Of a stretch of 64,000 nt of DNA, positions 47,793-63,969 are shown piece by piece. How positions within the stretch are numbered: position 1 is the first letter of the stretch; every line of letters starts with the position of its first letter. Below the pieces are notes generated by a model. That model was not told the origin of the DNA. It ran no database searches and saw nothing but the letters and a program-made list of their open reading frames with translations. This DNA comes from Synechococcus sp. PCC 6312 (GTDB lineage: Bacteria > Cyanobacteriota > Cyanobacteriia > Thermosynechococcales > Thermosynechococcaceae): positions 1,055,501-1,119,500 of the forward strand of contig NC_019680.1 of the NCBI RefSeq assembly GCF_000316685.1, given 5' to 3'. The translations under genes and the position numbers were made by a program.

Positions 47793-47825
47793 TTCTCATG
47801 AGAGTTTGTTGAAGCAAGATGATTG

Positions 47826-48939
47826 ATATAGTAATCCATTTTTATACATGAGATAATTAGAGCATGATTTAGATGGTCTTATGGATGAACTCAACCAATT
47901 TATTGATGCTTGTCTAGATTCAAGATAGACTAAGCGCGCTCTAGCGGCAAAAATGACACCAGAAGGATTTACGCATCAGCAGATTATGAATATCCTCCGA
48001 GTTTCATCAGGATTTTGCCACGCACGACCTTCGTCCTATACAAAGTGGAAGTAAGCTTTTTTATTGTCAGGCGTTAATGGACTAAAACTGGGCTAAAAAG
48101 GTAAAGTCGCATATTTGACAGAGGTTGAAAAACAACAGGTACTTGATTGGTTAAAGCAACAGAATTATTGGAATCTTGAAGAGTTAGAGGAGTATATTTT
48201 AGAGACATTTAACGTTGTCTATTCTGTAAAGTCTAGCCATTATAATTTTTTACATAAAGCGGGCCTATCCTGTCAAAAAGCACAGGTCACTCATCCCTTA
48301 AAAGACCGAGATCAAGTTGCTTTAAAAAAAGAGATTTGCCAGTATTTATAAACTAATCGAGTTTCAATGGAATAGAGAAAAACTGTTGTCTACTGCGTGG
48401 ATCAGCGTCATCTTATTTCCGGGAATACTTGTGGATAAGCTTGAGGTAAAACGGATGAAAGAATACAGGTTCCCATCAAAAATATAAAAGAGAGGCAAAC
48501 ATATTATGGTGCAATTAACTATGTCACAGGTCACCTAATTGTAAAACCTTATTCGAGTGGAAATAGCCAGAATATGATTCAGTTTCTCAAAGGGATAAAG
48601 GCGATTCATCCCAATCAGAAAGTTATTGTGATTTGGGATGGTGCAGCATATTATAGCAGTCATGATTTTCGCAATTATTTACATCAAGTCAATGAAGATA
48701 AGCCAGAACAAGAATGGCCTATTCGCTGCATCAAATTAGCCCCATACGTACCGAAACAAAATCCGATTGAAGCAGTGTGGTCGCAAGTTAAAAACTTCTT
48801 GAGGAATATGTGTCACTTATTAAAGACGTTTAAGATTACTAAATGGCTGTTTGAATTGTTTTTAAGCCATTTTGTTCTCCATTCTTCTCATGTTAATATG
48901 TATGGTACGTTCTCATGAATAATTCATGTTTGCTATATA
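47826..48939 (+). mobile_element. Decayed IS630-type (Tc1/mariner) insertion sequence
   Basis: The ends are imperfect inverted repeats: left ATATAGTAATCC then CATGAGA, right TCTCATGAATAATTC then GTTTGCTATAT. They enclose a broken transposase. A TA target at both outer edges fits IS630 insertion. The right end abuts an open coding frame with no start (48940-49440), so the element interrupted or truncated a gene. The ~98-bp MITE at 7064 has the same end sequences. Confidence 0.7.
47881..48918 (+). pseudogene. IS630-type transposase, inactivated
   Basis: Recognisable IS630 transposase pieces in order: MDELNQFIDACLDSR then an in-frame TAG; TKRALAAKMTPEGFTHQQIM (winged-helix part); WLKQQNYWNLEELEEYILET (48140-48210); a broken stretch with stops around 48350-48430; then the DDE half with VIVIWDGAAYYSS (second Asp) and YVPKQNPIEAVWSQVKNF (Glu), ending KWLFELFLSHF. 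Several stops and frame changes make it inactive. Intact relatives are about 340-350 residues. Confidence 0.8.
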
Positions 48940-49440
48940 GCTGGCGATGCCCCAAACTTTGAAGACGACATACTAATTTTGCCCGCCACAAATCGATCGT
49001 ATATTATTCATTCAAATAACGGGCTTTCGGGCAAAGTTTTCCTGCCACCCAACGAAGATTTCAATCCCGGAGACTGGATTGAAATTATCTATTCCTACAG
49101 GGACGACTTATTTGTCTTTGGCAATGAGCGTCAAATGATTGTGGCTGCGGAGGAATTGACCGATCTTTATTGGAACAATACCGCTTCCTCGGCTAGCGTC
49201 TTTTATTACAACCCAGACATCAAGAGATATTATGGAGCGGCATATCCAAAGCTACAAGGTGAGTCCGAAAGCTGCAAGAGTAGGGACATCGTCAAGCTTG
49301 TTTGTGCAAATATTCTGGAGCAGGTCTTCTTTTTCCCCACCACTGACTCCGATGGGGACTATACAACCAGCCCGCTCACGCCCGAAACCGTCAACGGATG
49401 CAATGTCTGGATAGCTTTTCACTACAACTCTTCGCCTTGA
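48940..49440 (+). pseudogene. Unknown gene, 5' end removed by the IS630-type element
   Basis: The frame is open from the IS junction: AGDAPNFEDDILILPATNRS, then YIIHSNNGLSGKVFLPPNED and a C-terminal NGCNVWIAFHYNSSP. The only in-frame starts after the junction are weak (for example TTG at 48979, inside what looks like conserved sequence). The product is soluble-looking and balanced in composition; I do not recognise it. A start upstream of the insertion (a TTG just left of the element) is conceivable if the element is removed. Transcription into the CRISPR flank is possible. Confidence 0.55.
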
Positions 49441-49470
49441 TTAATAATTTTTGCTTATATGTGGTCGCAT

Positions 49471-49533
49471 AATTCTGGATCAAATCTGTCAGAGAGAATG
49501 ATCCAAAAATCACTGATTTTTTGATCCAGAATT
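49471..49533. repeat. AATTCTGGATCA inverted repeats, left flank of the CRISPR array
   Basis: AATTCTGGATCA at 49471-49482, a degenerate reverse copy TGATCCAAAAAT at 49499-49510, and an exact reverse copy TGATCCAGAATT at 49522-49533. The first and third copies make a 12-bp perfect inverted repeat around ~40 bp. The same 12-mer recurs three times on the other side of the array. The inner border lies 15 bp before the spacer-like segment at 49549. Confidence 0.85.
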
Positions 49534-49548
49534 ACGTGACTCGTTACA

Positions 49549-49583
49549 AAGAAAACCAGGCAAGCCGAGGCTCGGCAACAAAT
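49549..49583. other. Spacer-like segment matching the MuA-like transposase gene
   Basis: 35 nt directly left of the first CRISPR repeat, equal to the commonest spacer length in this array. It matches 55359-55393, inside the transposase gene at 55029-57293, at 33 of 35 positions (mismatches at positions 12 and 33 of the segment). Identity stops at both expected spacer borders. No recognisable repeat lies on its left; the AATTCTGGATCA element stands there instead. Most likely a genuine leader-distal spacer whose terminal repeat was lost. Confidence 0.75.
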
Positions 49584-51982
49584 GTGCTCAACGCCTTACG
49601 GCATCTAAGGTAGAGGAACCTCTTGCCGAAATGGTTGACTGGATTTGTGACAATCTGTGCTCAACGCCTTACGGCATCTAAGGTAGAGGAACATCAATAC
49701 CCCAATCGGTGTTTCCACTTTATAGGAGTGCTCAACGCCTTACGGCATCTAAGGTAGAGGAACAGGAACACGCCACCGATAGGTAACAAAATCAATTTGT
49801 GCTCAACGCCTTACGGCATCTAAGGTAGAGGAACTGTGGCAGTGGTAGCCGCATTTCCATCGTCATCTTGTGCTCAACGCCTTACGGCATCTAAGGTAGA
49901 GGAACTACCCACAAAGGTCTAGGGATTTTTTAATACTCTTGTGCTCAACGCCTTACGGCATCTAAGGTAGAGGAACTTTACTAAATTCAGATGGGTGAAT
50001 CATCTTTTTTGCGTGCTCAACGCCTTACGGCATCTAAGGTAGAGGAACCAGTCTGGGGAAATAGTCTCTTTGTACGAAGCTCGATGTGCTCAACGCCTTA
50101 CGGCATCTAAGGTAGAGGAACATCAATACCCCAATCGGTGTTTCCACTTTATAGGAGTGCTCAACGCCTTACGGCATCTAAGGTAGAGGAACTACCCACA
50201 AAGGTCTAGGGATTTTTTAATACTCTTGTGCTCAACGCCTTACGGCATCTAAGGTAGAGGAACCCGGGAACTCAGTCACAGGATAGGGTAGCGGGATGTG
50301 CTCAACGCCTTACGGCATCTAAGGTAGAGGAACAGTCCACTCGCTCACTGACGATCAACTGATTGCCCAGTGCTCAACGCCTTACGGCATCTAAGGTAGA
50401 GGAACTTTCTTGACTGCTAACGAATCACTGACTTTATACGTGCTCAACGCCTTACGGCATCTAAGGTAGAGGAACTACTAATTATGCTAATCCCATAACC
50501 AATCGAGGTAGTGCTCAACGCCTTACGGCATCTAAGGTAGAGGAACGCTCAACGTGCCTATTTCAAAACGCGCCATCATTATGTGCTCAACGCCTTACGG
50601 CATCTAAGGTAGAGGAACGCTCAACGTGCCTATTTCAAAACGCGCCATCATTATGTGCTCAACGCCTTACGGCATCTAAGGTAGAGGAACAATAAGTGCC
50701 GGGGTATCTTGACTTCCCCAGAACTGTGCTCAACGCCTTACGGCATCTAAGGTAGAGGAACTAGTAACCCAAATTAAAGAGCTAATAAAAGAATCTTGTG
50801 CTCAACGCCTTACGGCATCTAAGGTAGAGGAACCCGGATAGCGGGGGAAATTTGGAAACTATTCACCGTGCTCAACGCCTTACGGCATCTAAGGTAGAGG
50901 AACCAGGCCAGCATTACCCGAGCGCAAAACCGGATCAGTGCTCAACGCCTTACGGCATCTAAGGTAGAGGAACCAAAATGTTAGTAACTCTATCAAAGTG
51001 CAACTTAACGTGCTCAACGCCTTACGGCATCTAAGGTAGAGGAACCGGCGGGTTGCCAGAATTGCTATGCCATCAACCAAGTAGTGCTCAACGCCTTACG
51101 GCATCTAAGGTAGAGGAACAATAGATAACCTTCAGGAAAACTCCAATTTAATACTTGTGCTCAACGCCTTACGGCATCTAAGGTAGAGGAACAAAAGGGT
51201 TTCCATTTTTGTTAACTGCGTACACTTGTGCTCAACGCCTTACGGCATCTAAGGTAGAGGAACCCTCGATTTTCGAGTACGGTCGTATTGTTTTACTTTG
51301 TGCTCAACGCCTTACGGCATCTAAGGTAGAGGAACAGTTAATCTCATCATTGAGCTTGTAGGGAATAAAGTGTGCTCAACGCCTTACGGCATCTAAGGTA
51401 GAGGAACAATTAAGGAAGCAACTCTCAAATTCTCTGCCTGGAGGTGCTCAACGCCTTACGGCATCTAAGGTAGAGGAACCAGCGACATCGGCAATAAACT
51501 TGAGTTATCAGAGAGTGCTCAACGCCTTACGGCATCTAAGGTAGAGGAACCCTCGATTTTCGAGTACGGTCGTATTGTTTTACTTTGTGCTCAACGCCTT
51601 ACGGCATCTAAGGTAGAGGAACTCTGGGTTTGAGGGCAATAATGGCAATGATGGAAAAAGTGCTCAACGCCTTACGGCATCTAAGGTAGAGGAACTGTTC
51701 ATCCTGGCTAATCAAAGGCTCATGAGCATGTGCTCAACGCCTTACGGCATCTAAGGTAGAGGAACACGGATGTCTTATGAAAAGCTGCTTTGGTTTATCT
51801 GGGTGCTCAACGCCTTACGGCATCTAAGGTAGAGGAACGCTATCAATGGATTTGTGATTGAGTTAGCCAAAAAAGTGCTCAACGCCTTACGGCATCTAAG
51901 GTAGAGGAACAATTTGGGAAGATGTCTCGTCAATTTCTACCCCAATGTGCTCAACGCCTTACGGCATCTAAGGTAGAGGAAC
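49584..51982. CRISPR. CRISPR array, 34 repeats and 33 spacers, no cas genes in window
   Basis: The 36-nt repeat starts GTGCTCAACGCCTTACGGCA and ends TCTAAGGTAGAGGAAC. I located 34 copies, the first at 49584-49619 and the last at 51947-51982, all apparently identical. Spacers are 34-38 nt. The repeat can fold by GCC-TTAC-GGC or CCTTA-7-TAAGG. Four spacers occur twice: 49693=50122, 49906=50193, 50547=50619 (adjacent), 51264=51551. CRISPR type and direction cannot be fixed: no cas gene is present, and I could not place the repeat in a known type. A truncated left end would suggest the leader is at the right (51983-52257). Confidence 0.98.
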
Positions 51983-51999
51983 TATGTAAGCAGTCATTT

Positions 52000-52168
52000 A
52001 ATTCTGGATCAGGGGGGTTTTAGTGAAATGGGGCGAAACGTGACGCGACTAAGTGAAATAGAGACTTGCAGGCATCGGCGGCCGGTTGCCTAGAAAACGA
52101 ACTGATCACGGAATTCTGGATCAACACGAAAACAAGAGTATTTCTCTGAGAGAGGTTGATCCAGAATT
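52000..52168. repeat. AATTCTGGATCA repeats, right flank of the CRISPR array
   Basis: Exact copies at 52000-52011 (forward), 52112-52123 (forward) and 52157-52168 (reverse). The last two form a 14-bp perfect inverted repeat (AATTCTGGATCAAC / GTTGATCCAGAATT) around a ~31-bp centre whose CTGAGAGAGGTTGATCC resembles the left-flank GTCAGAGAGAATGATCC. Between copies lie GTGAAATGGGGCGAAACGTG and AAGTGAAATAG, repeats of a GTGAAA core (52023-52060), and a hairpin AGGCA...TGCCT at 52070-52091. Transposase end-binding sites, or a leader with regulatory sites, are both possible. Confidence 0.8.
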
Positions 52169-52257
52169 AAATGATCACTTTTTGGGGGGTTGGTTTTGTG
52201 GCTCTGGGTTGCTCATGGGTGAACCTTTGAGGGGTGCTTTATTGTATTGGGGCGGCG

Positions 52258-52506
52258 CTAATCGCTTGTAAGAAGTAGGGTTGTTAGCCTTTCGATAGAC
52301 GATTCATAGTCTTCTTGGGTGTATCCTTCAGTTGCGGCTTGTTGTGAGAGGAAGGTCTCTCGGGCAAAGGCTTCGATTTCCGATGCCGTGACGTTGGTCG
52401 CCAGGGTTTTGAGGAATTCAATGATCATGGGATGGAAGCCATAGTCTTCGGATGCGTTGAGCATATCCAAGACTTCGTAGAGGTCGGTGGTGAGTTGTCG
52501 GTTCAT
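52258..52506 (-). CDS. Hypothetical protein, 82 aa, prophage left operon
   Basis: A small acidic, helical protein (LYEVLDMLNASEDYGFHPMI, IEAFARETFLSQQAATEGYT) without membrane segments. I do not recognise it. It is the last gene of the leftward group and separated by 134 bp from the HNH gene. Clear start ATG at 52506 preceded by an A/T-rich stretch (reverse strand). Function unknown. Confidence 0.6.
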   Translation of the reverse strand: MNRQLTTDLYEVLDMLNASEDYGFHPMIIEFLKTLATNVTASEIEAFARETFLSQQAATEGYTQEDYESSIERLTTLLLTSD

Positions 52507-52640
52507 CGTGATTCTATTTTTCTAACTATTCTAAGCCTTGCTTCCTGTCGGCATTCTTAATCGTTTTCCCCAGGCCATTAGGAAACTCGTGGCATGATTT
52601 TCCTAATGTGTTGATTTTGGCGGTTTTTGTCACCTGGAGC

Positions 52641-53600
52641 TTAGGCTGCGGGCTGTTTGCCCAGTGGGGTGGGCGGATATGGGGCGTAGAGCCTGGTGCG
52701 GAAGCGGTTGAGGGTTATTAGTGAGGTTCGGTATTCGGGATAGAGTTGGACGATGAAGCGGATGAGGTCGTCAATGGTGCAGGGCTGGTTCGTGCCGCCC
52801 ATCCAGGCGTGGAATTCGCAGTGGAGTGCGGTGCTAATGGTGAGTAGGTTATCGAGACTGTCTTCGAGCTGGGGGTAGTGTTTGGCGTTATAGAGATGGT
52901 GAACGTCCACTTCGATTTGCCCCTTAAGCCCGGAAAAGCCGGTGATTTGACATTTGTGTTTGTCTCGCTCTAGGGCTTGCTCTTTGGCTTTGTCGATGAT
53001 TTGTTTTTTGGTGAGTCCGGTTAGTTGTGGGTATAGGTGTTTGACGTTGATGACAACGGTGTTGCACCACTTTTTGCGAGCGGAATTGCTAAGGTGATCT
53101 GCTAGGAATTCGCCGATTCGATAGATGCCCGAAAGCGAGATATATGTGACTCCTTCTATGTAGGTAAAATGCTCGTCGGCTTTTAACGGTTTTTCTGATT
53201 GTTTTATTTTGCCTAAGACTTGTTGAAACGTTTTAGACTCGGTGCGAAAGATTCTGATGGTTTCTTGGATGGTGATGTAGTTGGATTTGTTGATAGTCTT
53301 GAGGCTTTGGCAGTTTTCGATGACGACTTGAGTGACCTGAGCGGATAGGTGTTCTTCTTTCTTTTGCTCAATTAACTGTTTGAGTTTGGCGGCAGCGGCT
53401 TGATTCTTGCCTTGGGCAAGGGCTTGGTAGATTATCTTGAGTCCTGGAACGAGGTAAATTCTAATCTTTTTGCCTTGATTGATGACCTTGTAATGCTCAC
53501 CTGGAATGAGTTTTATTCTGTCAACTGTGGCGTTGAAATGGGCGACATGAGTACCAATGGCGATGGCGATGTCTTGGTCTTTGATTTGAAGTTCGTTCAT
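52641..53600 (-). CDS. HNH nuclease domain protein of the prophage left operon
   Basis: 319 residues. The C-terminal part (~215-285) is HNH-like: KHKCQITGF, the VDVHHLYNAKHYPQLEDSLD segment with the paired His, NLL, and HCEFHAWMGG as the last His element. The N-terminal 200 residues are a helical, Lys/Gln-rich region with two phage-regulator-like segments (LIPGEHYKVINQGKKIRIYL and EHFTYIEGVTYISLSGIYRI). It overlaps the J-domain gene stop by 4 bp, so they form one operon. It could be a nicking/homing enzyme or a defence-type nuclease carried by the prophage. Confidence 0.75.
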   Translation of the reverse strand: MNELQIKDQDIAIAIGTHVAHFNATVDRIKLIPGEHYKVINQGKKIRIYLVPGLKIIYQALAQGKNQAAAAKLKQLIEQKKEEHLSAQVTQVVIENCQSLKTINKSNYITIQETIRIFRTESKTFQQVLGKIKQSEKPLKADEHFTYIEGVTYISLSGIYRIGEFLADHLSNSARKKWCNTVVINVKHLYPQLTGLTKKQIIDKAKEQALERDKHKCQITGFSGLKGQIEVDVHHLYNAKHYPQLEDSLDNLLTISTALHCEFHAWMGGTNQPCTIDDLIRFIVQLYPEYRTSLITLNRFRTRLYAPYPPTPLGKQPAA

Positions 53601-54175
53601 GGGGCTTGATTGAGGCTACGGTACATCTGTTCGAGGCGTTCAAAGATGCGTCTGTTGCCTGTTTCGGTGTTGTCGGGGTGGTAGGTTTTACTGAGGCGGT
53701 AGTATGCGTCTTTGATGTCTTTTTCGGTGGCAGTTTGAGGGTCTAGGTTGAAGACTTGCCAGGGACGGAAGTAGTTAAAAATGTTCACGCCGTTGATGCA
53801 CTCAGGGCCGGCTTGGTGTTCTTCGTCGGGGAGTGTGCCAATGAGGTCTCGGTAAAGCTGTTCCCAGGTTGCTTTGATGGCGTAGTTGAGGGCATCCATG
53901 CCGTCTGTGGCCATCTGAAACTTGCCGCTTTTGCGGAGGGCGGCGGTGCTGGTGACGTTGAATTTTTTGTAAAGGGCTTGTTTGAGTTGGGTGACGGTGA
54001 GGGGCTTGACAGTGGGGGGCTTGACAGTGGGGGACTTGGGTTCCTTTGGGGGTTTGGGGGGTTTGGCGAGGACTAGGTGGGCAAAAGTTTGAAGGATTTG
54101 GGGGTCGTAGCCATGATCCCGGTGCAGCCGCTCGATTTCGGCAAGGATATGCGGGGCGAGGGGCTTGGCAGGCAT
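53597..54175 (-). CDS. J-domain (DnaJ-like) protein of the prophage left operon
   Basis: 192 residues. The C-terminal ~60 residues are a J-domain: WQVFNLDPQTATEKDIKDAY, then YRLSKTYHPDN with the HPD tripeptide required to stimulate DnaK. The N-terminus is a Lys/Pro-rich segment with short repeats (PKPPKEPKSPTVKPPTVKPL) and a helical middle. J-domains at the C-terminus are uncommon compared with N-terminal ones. It is coupled to the HNH gene by overlap. Possible roles: recruiting host DnaK for prophage replication, repressor or transpososome remodelling. Inference only. Confidence 0.85.
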   Translation of the reverse strand: MPAKPLAPHILAEIERLHRDHGYDPQILQTFAHLVLAKPPKPPKEPKSPTVKPPTVKPLTVTQLKQALYKKFNVTSTAALRKSGKFQMATDGMDALNYAIKATWEQLYRDLIGTLPDEEHQAGPECINGVNIFNYFRPWQVFNLDPQTATEKDIKDAYYRLSKTYHPDNTETGNRRIFERLEQMYRSLNQAP

Positions 54176-54192
54176 GAGAGCGAGGAGAGGAA

Positions 54193-54286
54193 CTTGAATG
54201 TCGTTTTTCAGGAACTTGAATGATCTTGAAGGCTAACTTGAATGAACTTGAACGATCTTGAAGGTTAACTTGAACGTTAACTTGAA
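54193..54286. repeat. Helically spaced CTTGAA repeats upstream of the J-domain gene
   Basis: Eight copies of CTTGAA, at 54193, 54215, 54225, 54237, 54247, 54257, 54269 and 54281. From the second copy on the spacing is 10-12 bp, one helical turn. Most copies are preceded by AA and several followed by CG or GG. They lie between the start of the J-domain gene and the end of the repressor gene. A cooperative operator array or transposase/enhancer-like site is possible. Confidence 0.8.
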
Positions 54287-54324
54287 GGTTTGGTAGCTAA
54301 ACCCGCATAAGTGAAACTTATCAG

Positions 54325-54651
54325 TTAGGCAACAGTGAGGTACTCCAACCCCTTCTCCATTACCTTGGCTAGAGAGGCTTTTGGTAAACGGCTAAGTTGC
54401 CGAATGATGGTGTCCTCATTGAACTGTGCTGCACCTTCCAGGTATTCCATCAGATCTGAGTGGGACTGTCCGGTTGCTTTTGCAATCTTCTCAAGGCTGA
54501 GAACGCTGGGGAAGTGGGTGCGGTTGTACCAGTTTTGTATTGCTGTATAGGAAATCCCGAACTCTTTTGCGAGTTCCCGCTGACTCATATTCCGTGTGCG
54601 CTGCTCTTTCTGTAGCAGACAAATTAACCGTTCGCGTGCGTTTTCGTTCAT
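54325..54651 (-). CDS. Prophage repressor-like XRE family regulator
   Basis: 108 residues from the ATG at 54651, which has AAGGGGGG upstream; a longer frame to 54684 is less likely. The N-terminal helix-turn-helix is clear (MSQRELAKEFGISYTAIQNW, then YNRTHFPSVLSLEKIAKATG), followed by a short C-terminal helical region. It is divergent from the Ner-like gene, in the place of the Mu c repressor. Three or more ACTTGTC-N5-GACAAGT dyads between the two genes are its probable operators. Confidence 0.85.
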   Translation of the reverse strand: MNENARERLICLLQKEQRTRNMSQRELAKEFGISYTAIQNWYNRTHFPSVLSLEKIAKATGQSHSDLMEYLEGAAQFNEDTIIRQLSRLPKASLAKVMEKGLEYLTVA

Positions 54652-54695
54652 AAAGTACCCCCCTTCCAAGAGAACTGGGCGCATAGCTATATCTT

Positions 54696-54799
54696 ACTTG
54701 TCAGACTGACAAAAGCAAGTGAAAGAGACCGAACTTGCCATATTGACAAGTAAGATTGTCGGAACTAAACTGACAAATGAACTTGTCGGATCGACAAAT
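54696..54799. promoter_or_regulatory. Operator cluster between repressor and ner-like genes
   Basis: Dyads of the form TTGTC-N5-GACAA: 54698-54712 (TTGTC-AGACT-GACAA), 54735-54749 (TTGCC-ATATT-GACAA, one mismatch) and 54783-54797 (TTGTC-GGATC-GACAA). A wider pair TTGTC-N11-GACAA lies at 54756-54776. Centre spacing is 37 and 48 bp. The layout recalls multi-site phage operators. The rightmost dyad touches the start codons of the ner-like gene, so binding there would block its expression. Confidence 0.8.
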
Positions 54800-55019
54800 G
54801 CACCCAGAAGATATTAAGGCTGAATTACGGAAAAAAGGCTTTACTGGAGCGTCAATCGCCAGAAACCTGGGACTGACAAGGAGTACAGTTTCTTCTGTCG
54901 TCAGGCGCAAAGGGCGTTCTGCCAAGGTTGAGGTTGAAATTAGCAGAATCCTGGGGAAGCCCGTAGAGGAAATTTTCCCTGAGATTCCGTTGGATCGTCT
55001 TTTTTTGAAATCGAATTAG
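54777..55019 (+). CDS. Ner/Nlp-like DNA-binding protein
   Basis: 80 residues if started at 54777; a second ATG at 54798 gives 73 and matches Mu Ner length better, while the first lies upstream of the right operator. The sequence HPEDIKAELRKKGFTGASIA, RNLGLTRSTVSSVVRRKG aligns with Mu Ner (helix-turn-helix of the Nlp family), and the C-terminus KPVEEIFPEI is characteristic. Ner switches off the repressor and tunes early transcription. It lies 9 bp upstream of the transposase gene and is co-transcribed with it. Confidence 0.88.
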   Translation: MNLSDRQMHPEDIKAELRKKGFTGASIARNLGLTRSTVSSVVRRKGRSAKVEVEISRILGKPVEEIFPEIPLDRLFLKSN

Positions 55020-55028
55020 GGGTTAGCC

Positions 55029-57293
55029 ATGTGGTTTTCCGCCCAAGAGCTAACTGGATTGCCGGGACTCCCTGGCACTGTTCAGAGCATTAATCAAAAA
55101 GCCAAGCGAGAGGGCTGGCAGTTTAGGAACCGGTCTGGCAAGGGGGGCGGGAAGGAGTATCACGTTTCTAGTTTGCCAACTGAGGCCCAGGCCCGGCTTT
55201 TGGAACTCGAAAACACACCTATATATAAGGAGAAAACCGATGAATTGTGTGGAAGTGCTTTACCAGGCTTCGATTCTGTGCTTTGTGGTGCTGACGGCGA
55301 TTTTGTTGATTCGCATTGTGATTTTACTTCGAGACTATTAACCGAAGCGCCCAAAGACAAGAAAACCAGACAAGCCGAGGCTCGGCAACAGATCCTCCTG
55401 ACGTTGCAGGACTATTTGACTCGGCAAAATGCGGTCGGTTTAGGCAGAGTGCGCTATTGCCGCCAGGCCTTTGTGGATGCCTATAACGATCCCCTGGCCC
55501 CCAAGGGAGAACTGAGGCTGCCCTGGTGGGTGTATGGCGAGGTCAAAAGTATTAGCTATCAAACCCTTTACTCATGGGAGTTGAAGCGGGATGTGGCGGG
55601 GGTTTCAGGGTTAGCCCGGAAACAGGGTAAGCGAACTACAACCATTGAAGCTACCCCGGAACTGAAGCAGGCCTGCTTGGATTTGCTGCTGGCTCACCCA
55701 GATATTTCGGTGGTGGGGATGTGGCATGAGATGTGCGAACGGTTTGAGGATTGCCCTAGTTTGCCGACATTGCGGCGGTTTGTCCGGGGTTGGAAGGCAG
55801 AAAACAGCGACATTTTTGATTTTGCAGACTCACGGAAAGGCTGGAGAAACCGACACATGAAGGCGTTTGGGAGCTATCGGGCAACTCGGTTTAACCAACG
55901 TTGGGAGATTGACTCCACCCTGGCTGACATTGTTTGGGAGTTGGACGACGGGTTTGGCGGCTTCCAGCGATACGCCCTAGTGGTGGCCGTGGAGGTCTAT
56001 TCCCGGATGGCCAGGGTATTGGTTTGCCGAACCAGTAACAGTTTGGCGATTGCGGCGATTTTGCGGGAGTGCCTAATTGATTGGGGTGTGCCGGAGAGCG
56101 TCAAAACCGATAACGGAAAGGATTACCTGAGTCGTCACATCCTTAATATATTGAGTGTTTTGGGGATTGAGCATAAGAAATGTGTGCCATTCAATCCGCA
56201 GCAAAAACCATACGTCGAAAGATTTAACCACACGCTGAATCACGGTGCGGCGATGGTGCTGCACCCCAGATATTTGGGCCATGACGTGGTGACTCGGCAG
56301 AAAATCAGAAGCCGGGAACTGTGGCCGGAGAAGGCAAAGCGGAAGGGGGATGAGAGCGAGATTGAGGTGGTGCGGATCAATAAGAGTCTGCGGCAGATGC
56401 AGTGCTTCATTGAGGAGTGGTTGATTGATTATCACAACACCCCCCACGAAGGCCTTGGGCAAATCCGAGACGGGGCGGGGAATTTACGGCATTTGACCCC
56501 CTACGAAGCGGCGGCAAATCAACCGGCCAAGCGAATTGAGAATGTCCGGGCGTTGGATGTGTTGATGATGCCTGCACCCCAGGGTGGCTATCGGGCGACG
56601 GCTGGGAAGAAGGGGATCCGAGTGGGAAATTTGCCCGATGGGACTCCGGCTTATTACTGGCACGAGTGCTTGGTGGAGGTGGGACGGCGGTTTGAGCGGG
56701 TGTTTGTGAAGCTCGACCCGAATCCGGCGTTGATTCACCTGTTCGACAGTGAGGATTGCACCGAGTATCTGGGGGTTTGCGAGTGTTACGAAATCAGTGG
56801 AAACGACCCAATGCCGGGGATTATTGCGACGCGGCGGGCTGAGAAAGAGTCCCGAAAACTGGTGGCGGCGGCGCGGTTGTCTCGGCGGCGGCTGGAGAAA
56901 ACAGAACTGACCCCAGGCCGGGAGGTGGCGTTGCTCAAGGGGCAGGGTGAAATCCATGAGACTCCGGCTCTGAAGGCGGCGGCGAATCTGCAACCTGCTC
57001 GGAACACCACGGTGATTGGGATTGGCCCGATTAAGGAGTCTGCGCCGTTGCCGTTGCCCAACCCTGGGGCCCCACGCCTGGAGCGGGAGGTGGTGATTCC
57101 CCGTGTGTTGAACCAGTGGTATGCCGGGGAGCCGGTTGATCCGGTGGAGTTGGCGTTTGTGGGGCGGCAATTTGAGCTGAATCGCGGCGGCGTGACGCTG
57201 GTTGAGTGTTTGGTGCGTGACCGGGAGGATTTTTTCAAGTTCAGACGATGGGTGCTGGCTCAGTTAAGCGAGGGAATCCAGCAGACAGGTTGA
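55029..57293 (+). CDS. MuA-like DDE transposase
   Basis: 754 residues. An N-terminal Mu-type DNA-binding domain (MWFSAQELTGLPGLPGTVQS) is followed by further helical DNA-binding domains and the rve catalytic core: Asp in RWEIDSTLADIV (~297), Asp in VKTDNGKDYLS (~360), Glu in QKPYVERFNHTLNHG (~398). A basic beta-barrel and C-terminal domain follow, with a MuB-contact tail expected. Mu transposase cuts and joins prophage ends during replicative transposition. The segment 55359-55393 near the N-terminus is the one matched by the CRISPR spacer-like sequence. Frame is intact. Confidence 0.95.
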   Translation: MWFSAQELTGLPGLPGTVQSINQKAKREGWQFRNRSGKGGGKEYHVSSLPTEAQARLLELENTPIYKEKTDELCGSALPGFDSVLCGADGDFVDSHCDFTSRLLTEAPKDKKTRQAEARQQILLTLQDYLTRQNAVGLGRVRYCRQAFVDAYNDPLAPKGELRLPWWVYGEVKSISYQTLYSWELKRDVAGVSGLARKQGKRTTTIEATPELKQACLDLLLAHPDISVVGMWHEMCERFEDCPSLPTLRRFVRGWKAENSDIFDFADSRKGWRNRHMKAFGSYRATRFNQRWEIDSTLADIVWELDDGFGGFQRYALVVAVEVYSRMARVLVCRTSNSLAIAAILRECLIDWGVPESVKTDNGKDYLSRHILNILSVLGIEHKKCVPFNPQQKPYVERFNHTLNHGAAMVLHPRYLGHDVVTRQKIRSRELWPEKAKRKGDESEIEVVRINKSLRQMQCFIEEWLIDYHNTPHEGLGQIRDGAGNLRHLTPYEAAANQPAKRIENVRALDVLMMPAPQGGYRATAGKKGIRVGNLPDGTPAYYWHECLVEVGRRFERVFVKLDPNPALIHLFDSEDCTEYLGVCECYEISGNDPMPGIIATRRAEKESRKLVAAARLSRRRLEKTELTPGREVALLKGQGEIHETPALKAAANLQPARNTTVIGIGPIKESAPLPLPNPGAPRLEREVVIPRVLNQWYAGEPVDPVELAFVGRQFELNRGGVTLVECLVRDREDFFKFRRWVLAQLSEGIQQTG

Positions 57294-57318
57294 TTCAAAA
57301 AAACATTAGGAGGTGGCT

Positions 57319-57603
57319 ATGAACACAGTTGTTATTCAAATTGGCAATTCAGACGACAGGCTAAGTCAGCGTGATTGGGTGAGATTCAGGGCCCGTGTTC
57401 GGGAGGTTGTTTGTCGGTATTGCGCCCAGATCCACTTTGATGGGCACAGCAACAGTGACGCTGTTTGGCAAAATGCCTGCTTTGTTGCCGAGATTCCCGA
57501 GGGGCTGAGCGAGGTTGCCCTGAAGGACGTTTTGAGTGAAATCTCAGACGAGTTTGGGCAGGATTCGATTGCTTTCACTACTGGTACGACGGAGTTTGTC
57601 TAA
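57319..57603 (+). CDS. Hypothetical small prophage protein, 94 aa
   Basis: ATG at 57319 with a strong TAGGAGG before it; a GTG two codons upstream is the alternative. The sequence begins NTVVIQIGNSDDRLSQRDWV and has a two-layer alpha/beta look (beta strand, helix with RARVREVVCRYC, strand, helix SEVALKDVLSEI, strand). I do not recognise it. It lies between the MuA- and MuB-like genes, where Mu has none. Confidence 0.7.
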   Translation: MNTVVIQIGNSDDRLSQRDWVRFRARVREVVCRYCAQIHFDGHSNSDAVWQNACFVAEIPEGLSEVALKDVLSEISDEFGQDSIAFTTGTTEFV

Positions 57604-57612
57604 AAAGAGAAA

Positions 57613-57633
57613 CCCCTTGCGGGGCCAGTTTTT
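57613..57633 (+). terminator. Short hairpin between small gene and MuB-like gene (attenuator?)
   Basis: CCCC-TTGC-GGGG (57613-57624) followed after four bases by five T residues (57629-57633). The 4-bp GC stem is short, so it is a weak terminator at best; partial termination would lower MuB relative to MuA. Confidence 0.35.
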
Positions 57634-57654
57634 ATATCTACAGGAGATCATAAC

Positions 57655-58377
57655 GTGCAAAATATTGCGATTACAAAAAACCTGAAAAGGTTTCAGGGAG
57701 CGTTTGGGGATTTAATTGGCCGCAGTGAACGAATCCCAGGCCTTGGACTCGTTACCGGCCCGGCCGGGACGGGCAAGACGGTGGCGGCGACCCATATTTG
57801 CCACAAGCAAAATGCGATCTACGTGTTGGCGGATCCGTTTTGGACGGCCTCCTCGATGCTAGGAGCGATCCTGCACAAGTTAAGCGTCAACCCCGGTCGG
57901 GTGAGTAATGCCGAGGCGTTTCGGTTGGCCGTGGAGAGGATGCGGGACACGGGGCGGTCGCTGCTGGTGGACGACGCGGATTTTCTCTTTGACAGTTCTG
58001 ACCGAAATCGGCTGGTGGAGGGGCTTCGCAGTTTGCATGACAAGTCTCAGCAGCCGGTGATCATGATTGGGATGGAAAAAATTCGCTCGAAACTCCACCG
58101 TTACCCACAAGTCTTGGGTCGGATGTCTCGGTCGGTGGACTTTGAATATTTAGACCTGGAAGACACGCGGGCGGTGTTGGAGGTGATTTGCAAGGTCAGC
58201 ATCGCGCCTGACCTGTCGCAGGTGATCCACCAACGAACTAAGGGCGCGCTCCGGTTGATTGTGGTGGCAGCGGAAACCATTGAGGCGGAAGCGACGGCCC
58301 AGGGCTGGGAAGTGGTTACGGCCGATCAGTGGGGAGACGCTGTTCTCTTTACGGGTGATTCTCGGAGGGCCGCATGA
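57655..58377 (+). CDS. MuB-like AAA+ ATPase
   Basis: 240 residues. Walker A GPAGTGKTVAATH (~34), Walker B SLLVDDADF (~103), sensor-like VIMIGMEKIRSK and a C-terminal helical domain with TKGALRLIVVAAETIEAEA. MuB binds target DNA and delivers it to MuA, and gives target immunity. GTG start with CAGGAG at 57641. The stop overlaps the next gene as ATGA. It lacks the N-terminal helix-turn-helix domain of Mu B (about 310 residues), as in many shorter MuB/TnsC-like ATPases. Confidence 0.93.
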   Translation: MQNIAITKNLKRFQGAFGDLIGRSERIPGLGLVTGPAGTGKTVAATHICHKQNAIYVLADPFWTASSMLGAILHKLSVNPGRVSNAEAFRLAVERMRDTGRSLLVDDADFLFDSSDRNRLVEGLRSLHDKSQQPVIMIGMEKIRSKLHRYPQVLGRMSRSVDFEYLDLEDTRAVLEVICKVSIAPDLSQVIHQRTKGALRLIVVAAETIEAEATAQGWEVVTADQWGDAVLFTGDSRRAA

Positions 58378-58913
58378 GATTTTGTTTGCCCAGGCAGATT
58401 GTTTGGACGGCAATTGCGCCCCGTGTGGGTGAAGTGGTGGATTTTGCGCCGTTGTTTGAGTCTGTGGGGACGACCGTGGTGCTTCAGCGCAGTTGGTTGC
58501 TGGCGTTGTCGCGGGCGGGGTATTTGTTGCGCCAGGGACGGGGGGGGCGGTTTCAGGTGCTGCGACATACGGGGGTGCTGGCCCCAATGCGGCGTAAGGA
58601 CGGCAGCTTGTATGACCCTAATACTGCCGGGCCGATTGAGCTGGGCGCGCTCCGGGTTTGGGTGGCGTTGCTGATTAACAAAGTCTTAACCCAGCCCGAG
58701 GCGGCGGCGTTGTGTGATTTGTCGGTGCAGCGGGTAGCTGAATTGCTCAGTGCCTGGCAACGGGTTGGGGCTGTCCGGGTTAGTCGTGTCGGGACTGGGA
58801 ATGGGCTTGAATACCGGATTGTGCGAGATCAGCCGATTTGCCCGATTGTTACGCCCCACGGTGTTTTTGATGTGTATCTCAATAAATTTTTGGAGGTTGC
58901 AAATGATGGGTAA
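58374..58913 (+). CDS. Hypothetical prophage protein with winged-helix-like segments, 179 aa
   Basis: Overlaps the MuB-like gene by 4 bp. A first half resembling a helix-turn-helix/wing (SWLLALSRAGYLLRQGRGGR, then FQVLRHTG) and a second helical segment (LTQPEAAALCDLSVQRVAEL, then SAWQRVGAVRVSRVG) suggest two winged-helix-like modules. The C-terminus is short and hydrophobic. Probably DNA-binding; no family recognised. High-GC codon use typical of this prophage. Confidence 0.7.
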   Translation: MRFCLPRQIVWTAIAPRVGEVVDFAPLFESVGTTVVLQRSWLLALSRAGYLLRQGRGGRFQVLRHTGVLAPMRRKDGSLYDPNTAGPIELGALRVWVALLINKVLTQPEAAALCDLSVQRVAELLSAWQRVGAVRVSRVGTGNGLEYRIVRDQPICPIVTPHGVFDVYLNKFLEVANDG

Positions 58914-59283
58914 TCGGTTAGCGTTTCGTCCCAAGGCCGGCCATTTTATTGATTGTGAACGGCTGGGTAACGGCACTTTCCGGGTGGAGATTCAGCAGGG
59001 GGTGAAGGTGTGCTACGGGGTGCTGACTCCTGAGGATGCTCGGATGACGGCCCGGATGATGGCCGGGATGGGCCCGGTTCGGTTAGTGTTTCGGCCCCAG
59101 ACCGGCCATCTTATTGATTTTGAGCGGCTGGAGAACGGCACTGTCCGGATGGAGATTCGGCAGGAATTAGAGGTCTGCTATGCGGTGCTAACCCCTGAGG
59201 ATGCTCGGATGCTGGGGCGGATGTTAATGGCTGGGTCTGGGCCAGTTTTGCCGGGGTTCACCCAAATGCGGAGGGCGGGTTGA
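58903..59283 (+). CDS. Small protein made of two tandem ~55-residue repeats
   Basis: 126 residues from the ATG at 58903 (GGAGG 8 bp upstream); a longer frame from 58750 is a shadow of the previous gene. Residues ~5-59 (RLAFRPKAGHFIDCERLGNG ... LTPEDARMTARMMAGMGPV) and ~60-114 (RLVFRPQTGHLIDFERLENG ... LTPEDARMLGRMLMAGSGPV) are clearly duplicated, with a beta-hairpin plus helix look. Function unknown. It overlaps both neighbours by a few bases. Confidence 0.75.
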   Translation: MMGNRLAFRPKAGHFIDCERLGNGTFRVEIQQGVKVCYGVLTPEDARMTARMMAGMGPVRLVFRPQTGHLIDFERLENGTVRMEIRQELEVCYAVLTPEDARMLGRMLMAGSGPVLPGFTQMRRAG

Positions 59284-59603
59284 TGAGAGCCCCCCACCCT
59301 GAAGGGACTATCGAGCGGGAGTTAACTTGCGAACTCTTTCGCCGGGAAGTGTTGGGTTGTTGCAACCTGCGAGAGTTGCGGTACCGACTGCTGTGGACGC
59401 ACAAGATGTTGCTGTCCGCCTATGACGAGATCGAGATTTTCGAGGCGGAATTATCTGAGGCCTTGGATGGGCGGGAGCGTGATTTTCGCCGCTTTATTGG
59501 CCAGTTGGATGAGTTGTGTCTGGAGTTGGATCGACTGGAGGCGGTGGTAGACCCCCAAGGGGGAGCAGTAGAGGCGTTGTTGCTGGGAGGTGATTGTGTC
59601 TGA
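59283..59603 (+). CDS. Hypothetical helical prophage protein, 106 aa
   Basis: Starts at the ATG overlapping the previous stop (TGATG). Predominantly helical and acidic (LRELRYRLLWTHKMLLSAYD, EIEIFEAELSEALDGRERDF, LDELCLELDRLEAVV); coiled coil likely in the second half. No family recognised. The end overlaps the next gene. Confidence 0.65.
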   Translation: MRAPHPEGTIERELTCELFRREVLGCCNLRELRYRLLWTHKMLLSAYDEIEIFEAELSEALDGRERDFRRFIGQLDELCLELDRLEAVVDPQGGAVEALLLGGDCV

Positions 59604-60162
59604 ACTGGAACGGCTAAAAAACTACTTGTTTGAGCACTGCTATGGCCAGGCCCGTGGTCAAAAAATGGCTGATATTGCCCTGGCGCTGGGGCGATGCTCG
59701 CGAGAGTTGCGGTATTTAGTGCAGGAGTTGCGGTTGCGAGGCTGCCCAATTTGCGCGCACCCAAACACAGGCTATTACTGGGCGGAAACTCCTGAGGAAT
59801 TGGAGGTGGCGTTGGGCTTTCTGCGAGGTCGGGCGTTGTGCAGCCTGAGACAGGTGGCGCGGTTGCAGCGTCATGCGTTGCCGTTGTTGGCAGGGCAGTT
59901 GGTGATTGGGGAATTGCCTCCTGTACCCGAAGGGGCCCCAGGGGCAGAATACGGGGGATTGGTGGCCTTGGAAGTTGCGCTGCCCTACACCCTGCATGAG
60001 CGGGTGGAAGCCTATTTGGAAAACCGCTTTTGGCTGAGTCAGGACGATCTGATTCGGCAAGCGGTGGCTCAGTTTTTGGCGTTGCAAGGGGTGGTGTTGC
60101 CCCCTAACCTGTTGGCGGAATTGGCGGAAGAAATCATTGAAGGAGAACTAATCCATGAGTAA
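59596..60162 (+). CDS. Hypothetical prophage protein with N-terminal HTH-like domain, 188 aa
   Basis: GTG at 59596 chosen because GGAGG lies 6 bp before it; a GTG two codons earlier is the alternative. Residues ~15-65 (RGQKMADIALALGRCSRELR, YLVQELRLRGCPICAHPNTG) look like a winged helix with a YYWA wing, common in phage proteins. The C-terminal part has a possible ribbon-helix-helix-like segment (LHERVEAYLENRFWLSQDDL, IRQAVAQFLALQ). Both parts point to DNA binding. Overlaps the next gene by 8 bp. Confidence 0.7.
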   Translation: MSELERLKNYLFEHCYGQARGQKMADIALALGRCSRELRYLVQELRLRGCPICAHPNTGYYWAETPEELEVALGFLRGRALCSLRQVARLQRHALPLLAGQLVIGELPPVPEGAPGAEYGGLVALEVALPYTLHERVEAYLENRFWLSQDDLIRQAVAQFLALQGVVLPPNLLAELAEEIIEGELIHE

Positions 60163-60955
60163 TTTAAAACCCCAAAAGGAAACATTTGAGCAGTTGAGTT
60201 TGATTGAGCGGTCGGATTTGGAGCGACTGGAGCAAACGATCCGGGCTGGGTTGAATACCTTTGTTGAGGTGGGCCAAGCTCTCCAGAAAATCCGAGAGCA
60301 ACGGTTGTACCGAGAAACCCACCAAACCTTTGAGGCCTATTGCGAAGACAAATTTGACTTGAGGCGGAACTATGCCGATAAAACCATTGCGGCTTCATCC
60401 TTTGTAGAGAGAATCAGTACAATTGGCGTGATTCTACCAACGAATGAAAGTCAAGTTCGGGAGATTTTGACGCTGCCTGAGGATCGACAAGTCGAGGCCT
60501 GGCGTGAGGTGGCGGAAGCGGCGGCCAGTGAGGGCAAGTTGACGGCGGATTTAGTCAAGACGGTGGTGAAGCGGTTGCGAGAGGTGCGGCTTCCGGGTGG
60601 AAATGATCCTCAATCCCCTGATGTGGCTAGTGGGCCGAGGGTGGCCGGGCCTGAAGTGCCGTTGTCGTTGCTAGAGGCGGGGCAGTTGGTGCTGACGGGT
60701 GTGGGTGAGGAGATGTTGCACTTTCGGGATCTCTCTGAGGCTCAGGATTTGGCAGGTCGGCCGCTGTATCCGCAGTGGATTGGATTTGGCCCAAGTTGCT
60801 TGCTACGGGAGTTGTTGCCGCTGTTTCGGGACGGGCTGTTTTGTCTGTATTTCGGCTGGTTGGCGGTGTATGTCGGTGATAGTCCGATTGAGTTTTACGA
60901 GGCGTTTGTGGGACTCGGGGATATTTGGGCCCGGCAGGAGGTGGGGGATGAATGA
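60155..60955 (+). CDS. Phage-type protein with DUF3102/ParB-like helical N-domain, 266 aa
   Basis: The N-terminal ~110 residues (LERLEQTIRAGLNTFVEVGQ, ALQKIREQRLYRETHQTFEA, YCEDKFDLRRNYADKTI) match a module frequent in phage and plasmid proteins, close to DUF3102-like or ParB-type HTH proteins. The C-terminal half is different: a Trp/Phe-rich alpha/beta part (LLPLFRDGLFCLYFGWLAVY). Likely DNA-binding with an unknown effector half. The stop overlaps the next start as ATGA. Confidence 0.7.
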   Translation: MSNLKPQKETFEQLSLIERSDLERLEQTIRAGLNTFVEVGQALQKIREQRLYRETHQTFEAYCEDKFDLRRNYADKTIAASSFVERISTIGVILPTNESQVREILTLPEDRQVEAWREVAEAAASEGKLTADLVKTVVKRLREVRLPGGNDPQSPDVASGPRVAGPEVPLSLLEAGQLVLTGVGEEMLHFRDLSEAQDLAGRPLYPQWIGFGPSCLLRELLPLFRDGLFCLYFGWLAVYVGDSPIEFYEAFVGLGDIWARQEVGDE

Positions 60956-61188
60956 CCCCTTGGCGGCTCGGTTTGATAATCCCGGACAAGGTACGCGGTG
61001 GCGATTGGGGTTGGTTGGTGCAACGGGAAGAGGAGGCTAATTCGGTGGGAAAAAGCGAACAAAACCCTGAAGCCCAGGCTAGCAAAGAGTTACCCAAGCG
61101 CCTAAACGAAATGTCTGAAGCAGAACGGGCAGAGGCGGCGGCGGCGATTGAAAAAGCACGAGCAAATTTAAGGAGGGGGCATGAGTAG
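60952..61188 (+). CDS. Hypothetical small prophage protein, 78 aa
   Basis: Short, charged, with a helical Ala/Glu-rich C-terminal half (LNEMSEAERAEAAAAIEKAR). Starts in a 4-bp overlap with the previous gene and overlaps the next by 8 bp, which supports expression. No family recognised. Confidence 0.55.
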   Translation: MTPWRLGLIIPDKVRGGDWGWLVQREEEANSVGKSEQNPEAQASKELPKRLNEMSEAERAEAAAAIEKARANLRRGHE

Positions 61189-61429
61189 GACGACACCTGT
61201 TACAATTCTGGACTTTCTGAGTCGCCAAACTCGGTCTATTGGTTTTAGGTCGCTAGCCAAGGGCTGCAACAGCCGTTTAGGGGTGGAAAAGTTTCACCAT
61301 TTACTTTGGCTTCTGATAATTCATGGACTCGTCCGCTATAGCTCTACTGATCCTCGCAAGACAACTCTCTATCAAATCACTGAGGAGGGTCGGAAGCTTT
61401 TGCAGGAGTTTCGTGAAAAGGGGATTTGA
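61181..61429 (+). CDS. Winged-helix DNA-binding protein, 82 aa
   Basis: A compact winged helix: TILDFLSRQTRSIGFRSLAK (helices 1-2), LGVEKFHHLLWLLIIHGLVR (recognition helix and strand), YQITEEGRKLLQEF (wing and last helix), as in small PadR/ArsR-like folds. GGAGG precedes the ATG at 61181. Probably an accessory transcription factor of the early region. Confidence 0.75.
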   Translation: MSRTTPVTILDFLSRQTRSIGFRSLAKGCNSRLGVEKFHHLLWLLIIHGLVRYSSTDPRKTTLYQITEEGRKLLQEFREKGI

Positions 61430-61458
61430 GCTAGGTAGGTTGTCACAGGAGATTCAAG

Positions 61459-61656
61459 ATGTTGATTGAGCAGTATTTAGACAGGCTGGCGGCGGAACGG
61501 GTTGAGTGGGAAGTCCTGTGTCAACAGGCCTACAGCCCGGAAGAGAAGCAGGTGGTGGTGGAGAAGATTCGGGATTTGCTGGCGGTGATGCGCTCGCAGC
61601 GGGAGTGGTTACAGGCGGGGCTAAAAAGCGTGAAGGAAAAGGAGCAGGGGCTATGA
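61459..61656 (+). CDS. Hypothetical small helical protein, 65 aa
   Basis: All-helical, strongly charged (MLIEQYLDRLAAERVEWEVL, VVEKIRDLLAVMRSQREWLQ). CAGGAG precedes the ATG. Ends with a 4-bp overlap (ATGA) with the NblA-like gene, so the two are coupled. No family recognised. Confidence 0.6.
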   Translation: MLIEQYLDRLAAERVEWEVLCQQAYSPEEKQVVVEKIRDLLAVMRSQREWLQAGLKSVKEKEQGL

Positions 61657-61838
61657 ATTTACCCCATTTAGACCCGGATTTGATCCAGTTGAGCCTGGAG
61701 CAACAGGTATTGATTGAGACAATTAAGTGGCAAATTCCGCAAATGAGCCGGGGACAGTTGGAGGAACGGTTGTTGCAGATGACGCAGCTAGCCGAGGCGA
61801 GACAGGCGGTGATTCGGGCAATGGTCAAGGGAGGTTGA
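61653..61838 (+). CDS. NblA-like small protein, 61 aa
   Basis: Residues ~10-55 align without gaps to the NblA family: LSLEQQVLIETIKWQIPQMS then RGQLEERLLQMTQLAEARQA and a final Lys in MVK. It keeps the SLEQ motif, the Q and MS positions, and the spacing to the end helix seen in Synechocystis NblA. Identity by eye is modest (about a dozen of 43), so this is a distant relative. NblA proteins bind phycobiliproteins and Clp to dismantle phycobilisomes; some cyanophages carry nblA. Coupled to the upstream small gene by ATGA overlap. A generic helical hairpin is the alternative. Confidence 0.6.
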   Translation: MNLPHLDPDLIQLSLEQQVLIETIKWQIPQMSRGQLEERLLQMTQLAEARQAVIRAMVKGG

Positions 61839-61839
61839 G

Positions 61840-62097
61840 GTGAAACGTGAGCAGGAATTGCTGAGGGATTACGACCTCGAATTAACAAACGCTCGGCGCA
61901 AGATTCGCGAGCTTGAGGCCTTTGTGTCTGAGGTAAAGGCGATGCGCGTACTTCAGAAGCGGTATTTTGTGGGGCGATCTCGAACGGTCTTGCAAGAGTC
62001 AAAAAACCAGGAACGGTGCGTGGATCGGCTGGTTGACTCTTTGTTGGAAGACTCCACGGTTGCCCAGGGTGATTTATTTGGGGGCAGCAATGGCTAG
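61840..62097 (+). CDS. Hypothetical coiled-coil prophage protein, 85 aa
   Basis: GTG start 1 bp after the previous stop, with GAGGTTGAGG upstream. The N-terminal half is a coiled coil (REQELLRDYDLELTNARRKI, RELEAFVSEVKAM). The remainder is basic and then acidic. Overlaps the next gene by 8 bp. No family recognised. Confidence 0.6.
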   Translation: MKREQELLRDYDLELTNARRKIRELEAFVSEVKAMRVLQKRYFVGRSRTVLQESKNQERCVDRLVDSLLEDSTVAQGDLFGGSNG

Positions 62098-62467
62098 CCC
62101 AAAAGAGCCACTGAGTTTTCGAGTGCTGAAGCTGCTTGAGGCGGGGGAGTTTCGGTCTGTAAAGTCCGCTGCTTTATTGTTGCAGTGCTCGACGGCCGAG
62201 GTGGCAGAGGCGTTGCGAATGTGCCAGAAACGGGGTTGCGTTGTTCGCAGAAGGGGTGAACTCATGCGATTGGCAAAGCCCAAGCTGAGAGGCGGGGAGC
62301 CATTGAGTTATCGAGTGTTGCAGTTACTGGAAGCCAACCAGTTTGGGTCTGTGAGTAAGGCGGCAAAGCGGTTGCAGTGCTCGGTGGCTGAGGTGGTGGA
62401 GGCGTTGCAACTGTGTCGGATTGCAGGTTGTGTTGTACGGAGGAGAGGGAAGTGGCTGAGTCTGTGA
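62090..62467 (+). CDS. Tandem duplicated helix-turn-helix protein, 125 aa
   Basis: From ATG 62090; a longer frame upstream is a shadow. Two ~55-residue copies: PLSFRVLKLLEAGEFRSVKS ... CVVRRRGELMRL (residues ~6-61) and PLSYRVLQLLEANQFGSVSK ... CVVRRRGKWLSL (~69-124). Each has a helix-turn-helix (AALLLQCSTAEVAEAL / AAKRLQCSVAEVVEAL) and a basic wing, so one chain could bind as a built-in dimer to direct repeats. Function in prophage regulation is inferred. Confidence 0.8.
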   Translation: MASPKEPLSFRVLKLLEAGEFRSVKSAALLLQCSTAEVAEALRMCQKRGCVVRRRGELMRLAKPKLRGGEPLSYRVLQLLEANQFGSVSKAAKRLQCSVAEVVEALQLCRIAGCVVRRRGKWLSL

Positions 62468-62919
62468 GGCGGTCGCTACTGGCAAAAATCCACGTTGCCA
62501 AGAAGCAGTTGGGGCTAAGTGAAGACCAATATCGGGCGATTGTGGCTGGCGAGGGCGGGGCTGAGTCCTGCTCGGAGCTAACCCTGGATGAGTTGGGCTT
62601 GGTGCTGTCGGAGATGGAGCGACTCGGGTTTAAGGCAAAGCAAAGTGAGTCGCTGTCGCCCAGGAGCCGTGACAAAACGGTGAAAACCCAGACCGACCGA
62701 TTGGTGGCGTTGTGGATTAACCTTTACCAGGCCGGGGCAGTCAAAAATCGCTCCCACCAGGCCCTGCAAGAGTTTGTGATCAAGTTCCTGGGGGCAAATG
62801 TGAAAGTTATGCCGGGGGTTGACCCGCTGCAGGCTTTGAGTTGGCGGCAAAAGCAGAAAACAATTGGGGCGTTGGAGAAGTGGTTGAGGAAGGTCAGAGA
62901 GGAGGCGAAGCAGGCGTGA
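62452..62919 (+). CDS. GemA-like regulatory protein (DUF1018, Mu gp16)
   Basis: 155 residues from GTG 62452 (GGAGG 7 bp upstream). Begins RRSLLAKIHVAKKQLGLSED followed by QYRAIVAGEGGAESCSELT, the DUF1018 signature. The C-terminal half (DRLVALWINLYQAGAVKNRS, ALSWRQKQKTIGALEKWLRK) is likewise typical. In Mu, GemA modulates host gene expression early in infection. The position just before the Mor gene matches Mu gene order. Confidence 0.92.
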   Translation: MAESVRRSLLAKIHVAKKQLGLSEDQYRAIVAGEGGAESCSELTLDELGLVLSEMERLGFKAKQSESLSPRSRDKTVKTQTDRLVALWINLYQAGAVKNRSHQALQEFVIKFLGANVKVMPGVDPLQALSWRQKQKTIGALEKWLRKVREEAKQA

Positions 62920-63584: not shown

Positions 63585-63901
63585 TTATCGAGGATTTGCG
63601 GCGGGTGCTGGAGGATAAGGCAGATGCCTTTTTTGCGGCGTTTGGGGGGCAGGAGCTTTATATCCCCAAATGCCCGACCGCTGATCACTCGATTAGTTTG
63701 GAGATTGGCGTTGAGGCGGCAACCCGTTTGGGAGCCTATTTTGGCGGGACAACAATCTACGTTCCTTGGTCTGAGACGCGAGCCTCTCGCAACCGGGAGA
63801 TTGCCGCAGATTTGGCGGCTGGTACCTGTAGCTTGCAGGAGTTGTCACGGCGTTACGGGTTGTCACGCCGGCATTTGCGGCGGCTGAAGGGCAGTTCTTA
63901 G
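63581..63901 (+). CDS. Mor transcription activator family protein
   Basis: 106 residues. The N-terminal dimerisation part (VIIEDLRRVLEDKADAFFAA) is followed by the Mor/Mga signature ATRLGAYFGGTTIYVPWSET and a C-terminal helix-turn-helix (LQELSRRYGLSRRHLRRLKG). In Mu, Mor activates the middle promoter Pm directly downstream. Here the last early gene is likewise followed by a non-coding gap before the next frame at the window edge. Confidence 0.92.
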   Translation: MIIEDLRRVLEDKADAFFAAFGGQELYIPKCPTADHSISLEIGVEAATRLGAYFGGTTIYVPWSETRASRNREIAADLAAGTCSLQELSRRYGLSRRHLRRLKGSS

Positions 63902-63905
63902 ACTT

Positions 63906-63964: not shown

Positions 63965-63969
63965 GCTGC

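Follow-up and report, generated by a model that had tools for sequence, protein, structure and literature searches.

Why does a short segment at the edge of a CRISPR array in Synechococcus sp. PCC 6312 resemble the transposase gene of a Mu-like prophage carried by the same genome? The window analyzed here is a 64,000-nucleotide stretch of that genome (contig NC_019680.1, positions 1,055,501 to 1,119,500), and positions refer to the window unless they are marked as genome positions. Alignment demonstrated that the segment, 49549-49583 (hereafter o0), is identical to 55359-55393 in the MuA-like gene at 33 of 35 positions on the same strand, as an initial annotation of this DNA had claimed. About 3e-11 matches of this quality are expected by chance in the 3.72-Mb genome, assuming equal base frequencies, and a search of the genome with up to three mismatches returned these two places only. 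Both differences between o0 and the MuA gene are synonymous, and thus o0 records another allele of this gene; at the sequence level this supports the earlier proposal that o0 is an old anti-Mu spacer. A duplicated gene fragment was ruled out by the array register, the two silent changes and the lack of homology past the segment. We conclude that 49549-49583 is a true spacer, located at the leader-distal end of a type I-B CRISPR array.

The identity had also been described as stopping exactly at the spacer borders. Both borders are real, but only the right one is a CRISPR repeat, the first of the array, which begins at 49584. The left border is 49548, the terminal base of a Mu-like phage end (CGTGACTCGTTACA; the letters leading up to 49548 are TTTGATCCAGAATTACGTGACTCGTTACA), and therefore was set by insertion. 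Over the 134-bp stretch before 49548, identity with the right end of a second element, prophage 2 (at genome 1147326), is ~83%, and the exact TTACA and the internal motifs are shared. This stretch includes 49513-49548, where a degenerate repeat had been suspected; the candidate was rejected, as phage-end DNA lies there. The left repeat of o0 is thus missing because the right end of the first phage (phage 1) inserted at the spacer edge, and up to ~4 nt of o0 may have been lost with it, given that the spacers of the array are 33-39 nt long.

A scan of the genome for ends of this kind, allowing up to two mismatches, identified three places, namely 49548, genome 1147326 and the inverse related end at 51985. 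The same scan revealed no left end of phage 1 anywhere in the genome. The phage 1 remnant is bounded on its left by an IS630-like element, which itself abuts glyS, and the left end of phage 1, together with the array that once lay beyond it, was probably removed by deletion. Several inverted copies of a TTAATTCTGGATCA motif, probably transposase-binding sites, are found in the phage ends (51994-52174 and 49471-49535).

The prophage that carries the MuA-like gene had been regarded as adjacent to the array, a target that integrated 4 kb away. Instead, prophage 2 (39,842 bp, genome 1107485-1147326) lies within the same CRISPR array and splits it. Its ends, TGTAA...TTACA, have AACTA on either side, a target duplication, and the array resumes beyond them: 34 copies of the 36-nt repeat are found in 49584-51982 (part 1) and another 39 at genome 1147365-1150114, on the same strand, and all 73 are identical. 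When the flanks of prophage 2 are rejoined, a repeat, a normal 35-nt spacer and a repeat are restored. The right junction of prophage 2 is like that at 49548, with the phage end followed by a full spacer and then a repeat. No unsplit version of the array was found among relatives, and the open literature searched on Synechococcus sp. PCC 6312 yielded nothing about this array. Within part 1, four spacers are present twice (49693-51586; 2 = 8, 5 = 9, 14 = 15 and 24 = 28), which points to recombination inside the array. The features of the locus are listed in Table 1.

Table 1. Features of the split CRISPR array and its Mu-like elements, in window coordinates unless marked as genome.
Feature	Position	Strand	Remarks
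Degraded IS630-like element	47793..48922 (limits approximate)	+	Between glyS and phage 1 remnant; DDE_3 domain
Mu-like phage 1 remnant	48923..49548 (left limit approximate)	+	~0.6 kb; right end adjoins o0
Orphan spacer o0	49549..49583	- (crRNA sense)	Leader-distal, matches MuA; right repeat kept, left repeat gone
Array part 1	49584..51982	-	34 identical 36-nt repeats, 33 complete spacers; severed from leader
Spacer a11	50334..50369	-	Matches prophage 2 (genome 1144662-1144697) at 32/36
Target-site duplication AACTA	51980..51984; second copy genome 1147327-1147331	.	Perfect, 5 bp
Prophage 2, left part	51985..64000	+	Runs past the window, to genome 1147326
Leftward prophage genes	52258..54684	-	cI-like repressor at head; possible crRNA-sense read-through into array part 1
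MuA-like transposase gene	55029..57293	+	phrog_310; Mu DNA-binding and rve domains
o0 protospacer in MuA gene	55359..55393	-	AGG is the 5' flank on the crRNA-sense strand
MuB-like DNA transposition protein (AAA+)	57655..58377	+	phrog_296

Prophage 2 encodes MuA- and MuB-like proteins, cI-like and Ner-like regulators, an endolysin, a terminase, a portal, a head protease, a major head protein and a tail-fibre-like protein. As in Mu-like phages, MuA and MuB are accompanied by head, packaging and tail genes, by related inverted ends and by a 5-bp target duplication, and to judge from its genes the element looks like a complete Mu-like prophage. The initial annotation had alternatively suggested that o0 is a guide that regulates or excludes related transposons, for which no positive support emerged. 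A related reading, in which the transposon uses o0 as a guide or is controlled by it, brings to mind CRISPR-associated transposons (PMC11406308), where a DDE transposase and an AAA+ partner likewise lie near a CRISPR array in a cyanobacterium; moreover, a crRNA made from o0 would run antisense to MuA, and o0 adjoins a transposon end. However, the element here is a phage with head, packaging and tail genes, the array is the host's own, and o0 is part of this ordinary array with full cas genes. In addition, the protospacer lies inside the element rather than beside its insertion site, and a scan of a subset of the element's ORFs showed neither a cas gene nor TniQ. We therefore consider RNA-guided regulation or transposition very improbable.

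Beyond prophage 2, the 39 identical repeats are followed by the leader and then by the cas operon. ORF model matches placed Cas6, Cas3, Cas8, Cas7, Cas5, Cas4-1 and Cas2 to the right of the array on the minus strand, and Cas8 and Cas5 fit a MYXAN-like type I-B system. In four arrays of related genomes with similar repeats, conservation is seen in the right flanks and not in the left ones, and the repeat stem in crRNA sense directly precedes the 8-nt handle TTGAGCAC. These observations, together with the cas genes to the right, place the leader on the right and transcription leftward, so that o0 is leader-distal. Left-to-right transcription, which would leave o0 without a 5' handle, was ruled out by the conserved right flanks and the stem position. 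A degenerate repeat (24/36) that keeps the handle is present in the leader, 51 nt leaderward of the first repeat (genome 1150166-1150201).

With this orientation, the absence of the left repeat reported earlier concerns the 3' repeat only, and o0 retains the repeat that supplies its 5' handle (49584-49619). In the type I-B system of Haloferax, loss of the 3' handle is tolerated, that of the 5' handle is not, and the seed spans ~10 nt (PMC4326828). Therefore, the absent repeat alone need not inactivate o0. Of the two routes to tolerance that had been proposed, a missing repeat and mismatches, the latter is plausible, since crRNA seed position 3 is mismatched.

A second spacer of part 1, a11, also matches prophage 2, in the ORF preceding the tail-fibre-like gene, and three of its four differences are synonymous; o0 and a11 thus record alleles of this phage family other than those in prophage 2. 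In crRNA sense, the mismatches fall at positions 3 and 24 for o0 and at positions 5, 26, 29 and 31 for a11, which puts one of them in the seed of each (position 3 and position 5, respectively). The 5' flanks of these two protospacers, the only two available, are AGG (o0) and ATG (a11). Together with the TTG of a predicted guide target described below, these very few sites hint at an NTG PAM, for which AGG would be poor. The remaining spacers of the array match prophage 2 with 11-12 mismatches at best, as they do three host segments and the reversed prophage, and these weaker matches were discarded as background. None of the spacers on the leader side matches prophage 2 better than background. 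The genome also contains a second CRISPR system, whose different repeat is present 78 times at genome 2809537-2815131 and which has its own Cas1 at 2815737. It gave no good match to prophage 2 (the best, with 9 mismatches, was set aside), and the plasmid gave no good match either.

Prophage 2 is placed between the leader and the whole of part 1, with o0 and a11 included. We propose the following order of events. In earlier encounters with this phage family, the host would have acquired o0, taken from a phage closely related to the resident one, and a11. Afterwards the array itself would have received two Mu-like phages by transposition. Phage 1 would have landed with its right end at the leader-distal edge of o0, taking away the 3' repeat of the spacer, and most of phage 1 would have been deleted later. 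Prophage 2 would have inserted 2.4 kb off at another repeat/spacer border, splitting the array and leaving the leader 39.8 kb from part 1. Transcription of part 1 was then probably lost and its anti-Mu records switched off, and the severed leader, combined with the seed mismatch in each crRNA, would allow the host to tolerate prophage 2. We regard this account as a whole, with anti-Mu spacers, two phage insertions in the array, a part 1 cut from its leader and a tolerated prophage, as reasonably probable.

All copies of this kind in the genome, three Mu ends and one MuA gene, are in the array, which makes up ~0.14% of the genome. Two insertions in so small a target are unlikely if insertion is uniform and not under selection, and this would be explained if a phage persists most readily at sites where inserting harms the matching immunity. 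Most likely, the array insertion was kept, through tolerance or selection, because it made the host less immune to the phage. Consistent with this account, both prophage-matching spacers are on the leader-distal side; the statistics are weak, as two of two would be distal with a probability of ~0.2 by chance. Moreover, the seed mismatches alone may block targeting, leaving little to select. It might also be supposed that two neutral insertions struck a dispensable array that happened to hold an unrelated old spacer. An insertion target such as an array is dispensable, and spacers against common phages come as no surprise; however, given the first insertion, a second one in the same 5.2 kb has a likelihood of ~0.14% if insertion is uniform, and plain coincidence seems a poor explanation to us.

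The main rival to selection is an insertion hot spot, in which the transposase or MuB physically prefers repeat-rich array DNA whatever the spacers say, and the match reflects that the family infects this host. Two independent insertions 2.4 kb apart, each a few bases from a repeat/spacer border, and the lack of any other copy in the genome are what such a preference would produce. Nevertheless, the two junctions are at least 3 bp apart in register, and closeness of this degree arises by chance in ~1/5 of cases. Searches for relatives also bear on this point. No close MuA relatives were found, only relatives of 34-37% identity, and none of four more distant relatives lies in or beside a CRISPR array within the flanking DNA examined, which argues against a hot spot. 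We consider a hot spot rather unlikely, yet a serious competitor. The protospacer cores were not found in viral contigs, and the capsid relatives in viral contigs lacked the protospacers of these spacers.

The silencing of part 1 could be countered by the prophage itself, as its leftward genes may transcribe part 1. In this alternative, leftward transcription from the prophage expresses the severed part 1 in lysogens and guards them against other Mu-like phages, and the seed mismatches spare the resident. The leftward genes, headed by a repressor, point into part 1 in crRNA sense, o0 has its 5' handle, and the 3' handle is not needed in type I-B (PMC4326828). Moreover, a consensus scan, which is weak for cyanobacteria, revealed no leftward terminator-like site between these genes and the array. 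On the other hand, 276 bp and a Mu end separate the last leftward ORF from the array. A substitute promoter of this kind, the other main rival, is in our judgment rather unlikely. A DnaJ-domain gene (53597-54175) is present among the leftward genes, between the prophage repressor and the array.

When temperate phages escape CRISPR, mutated targets, anti-CRISPR proteins or a deleted CRISPR locus are usually invoked. Under our preferred account, selection for array insertion, this locus suggests a gentler escape, in which a transposable phage in the array unplugs the matching spacers from their promoter and the rest of immunity is kept. In general form, transposable phages would overcome CRISPR memory by settling between leader and matching spacers, silencing the older part with the newer part and the cas genes intact, and prophage leftward transcription might control the severed spacers; we put this forward tentatively, as a somewhat doubtful generalization. 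It predicts that, compared with chance, transposable prophages are over-represented within arrays at sites leaderward of the spacers that match them, which can be checked in public genomes.

Phage-mediated CRISPR loss is itself already known from Mu-like lysogens studied in the laboratory. P. aeruginosa PA14 lysogenic for the Mu-like phage DMS3 escapes self-targeting when the spacer or cas genes mutate or when transposition of the phage deletes DNA at the CRISPR locus (PMC11406979). That case resembles ours in combining a Mu-like prophage with an imperfect spacer match and in the changes to the CRISPR locus, some by phage transposition, in polylysogens; it differs in that the system is type I-F, the locus is deleted or the spacer or cas genes are mutated, and the setting is a 12-day experiment. 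In contrast, the locus described here belongs to a natural genome in which the prophage severs the older half of the array, and the newer half and the cas genes are kept. Self-targeting prophage spacers (PMC6990116) are likewise known with mismatched matches to a prophage of the same genome, and mutation of the spacer, the target or the locus is a known escape; here, however, the array contains the target prophage itself, leaderward of the matching spacers. We found no published case of the natural split-array form in the open literature searched.

Upstream of cas6, ~41 kb past the window (genome 1160657-1160756, minus strand), two degenerate repeats flank a guide, TAACTGTTTGAGTGCATATTGGG, with the handle described above. 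Guide positions 1-5, 7-11 and 13-14 agree with the presumed promoter of the cas operon at 1160548, interrupted by mismatches at precisely positions 6 and 12, and no other such site was found in 203.5 kb. The predicted target has TTG on the PAM side. From these sequence features, the guide looks like a regulatory RNA of the CreR or CreA type, kinds that are reviewed in PMC12737573.
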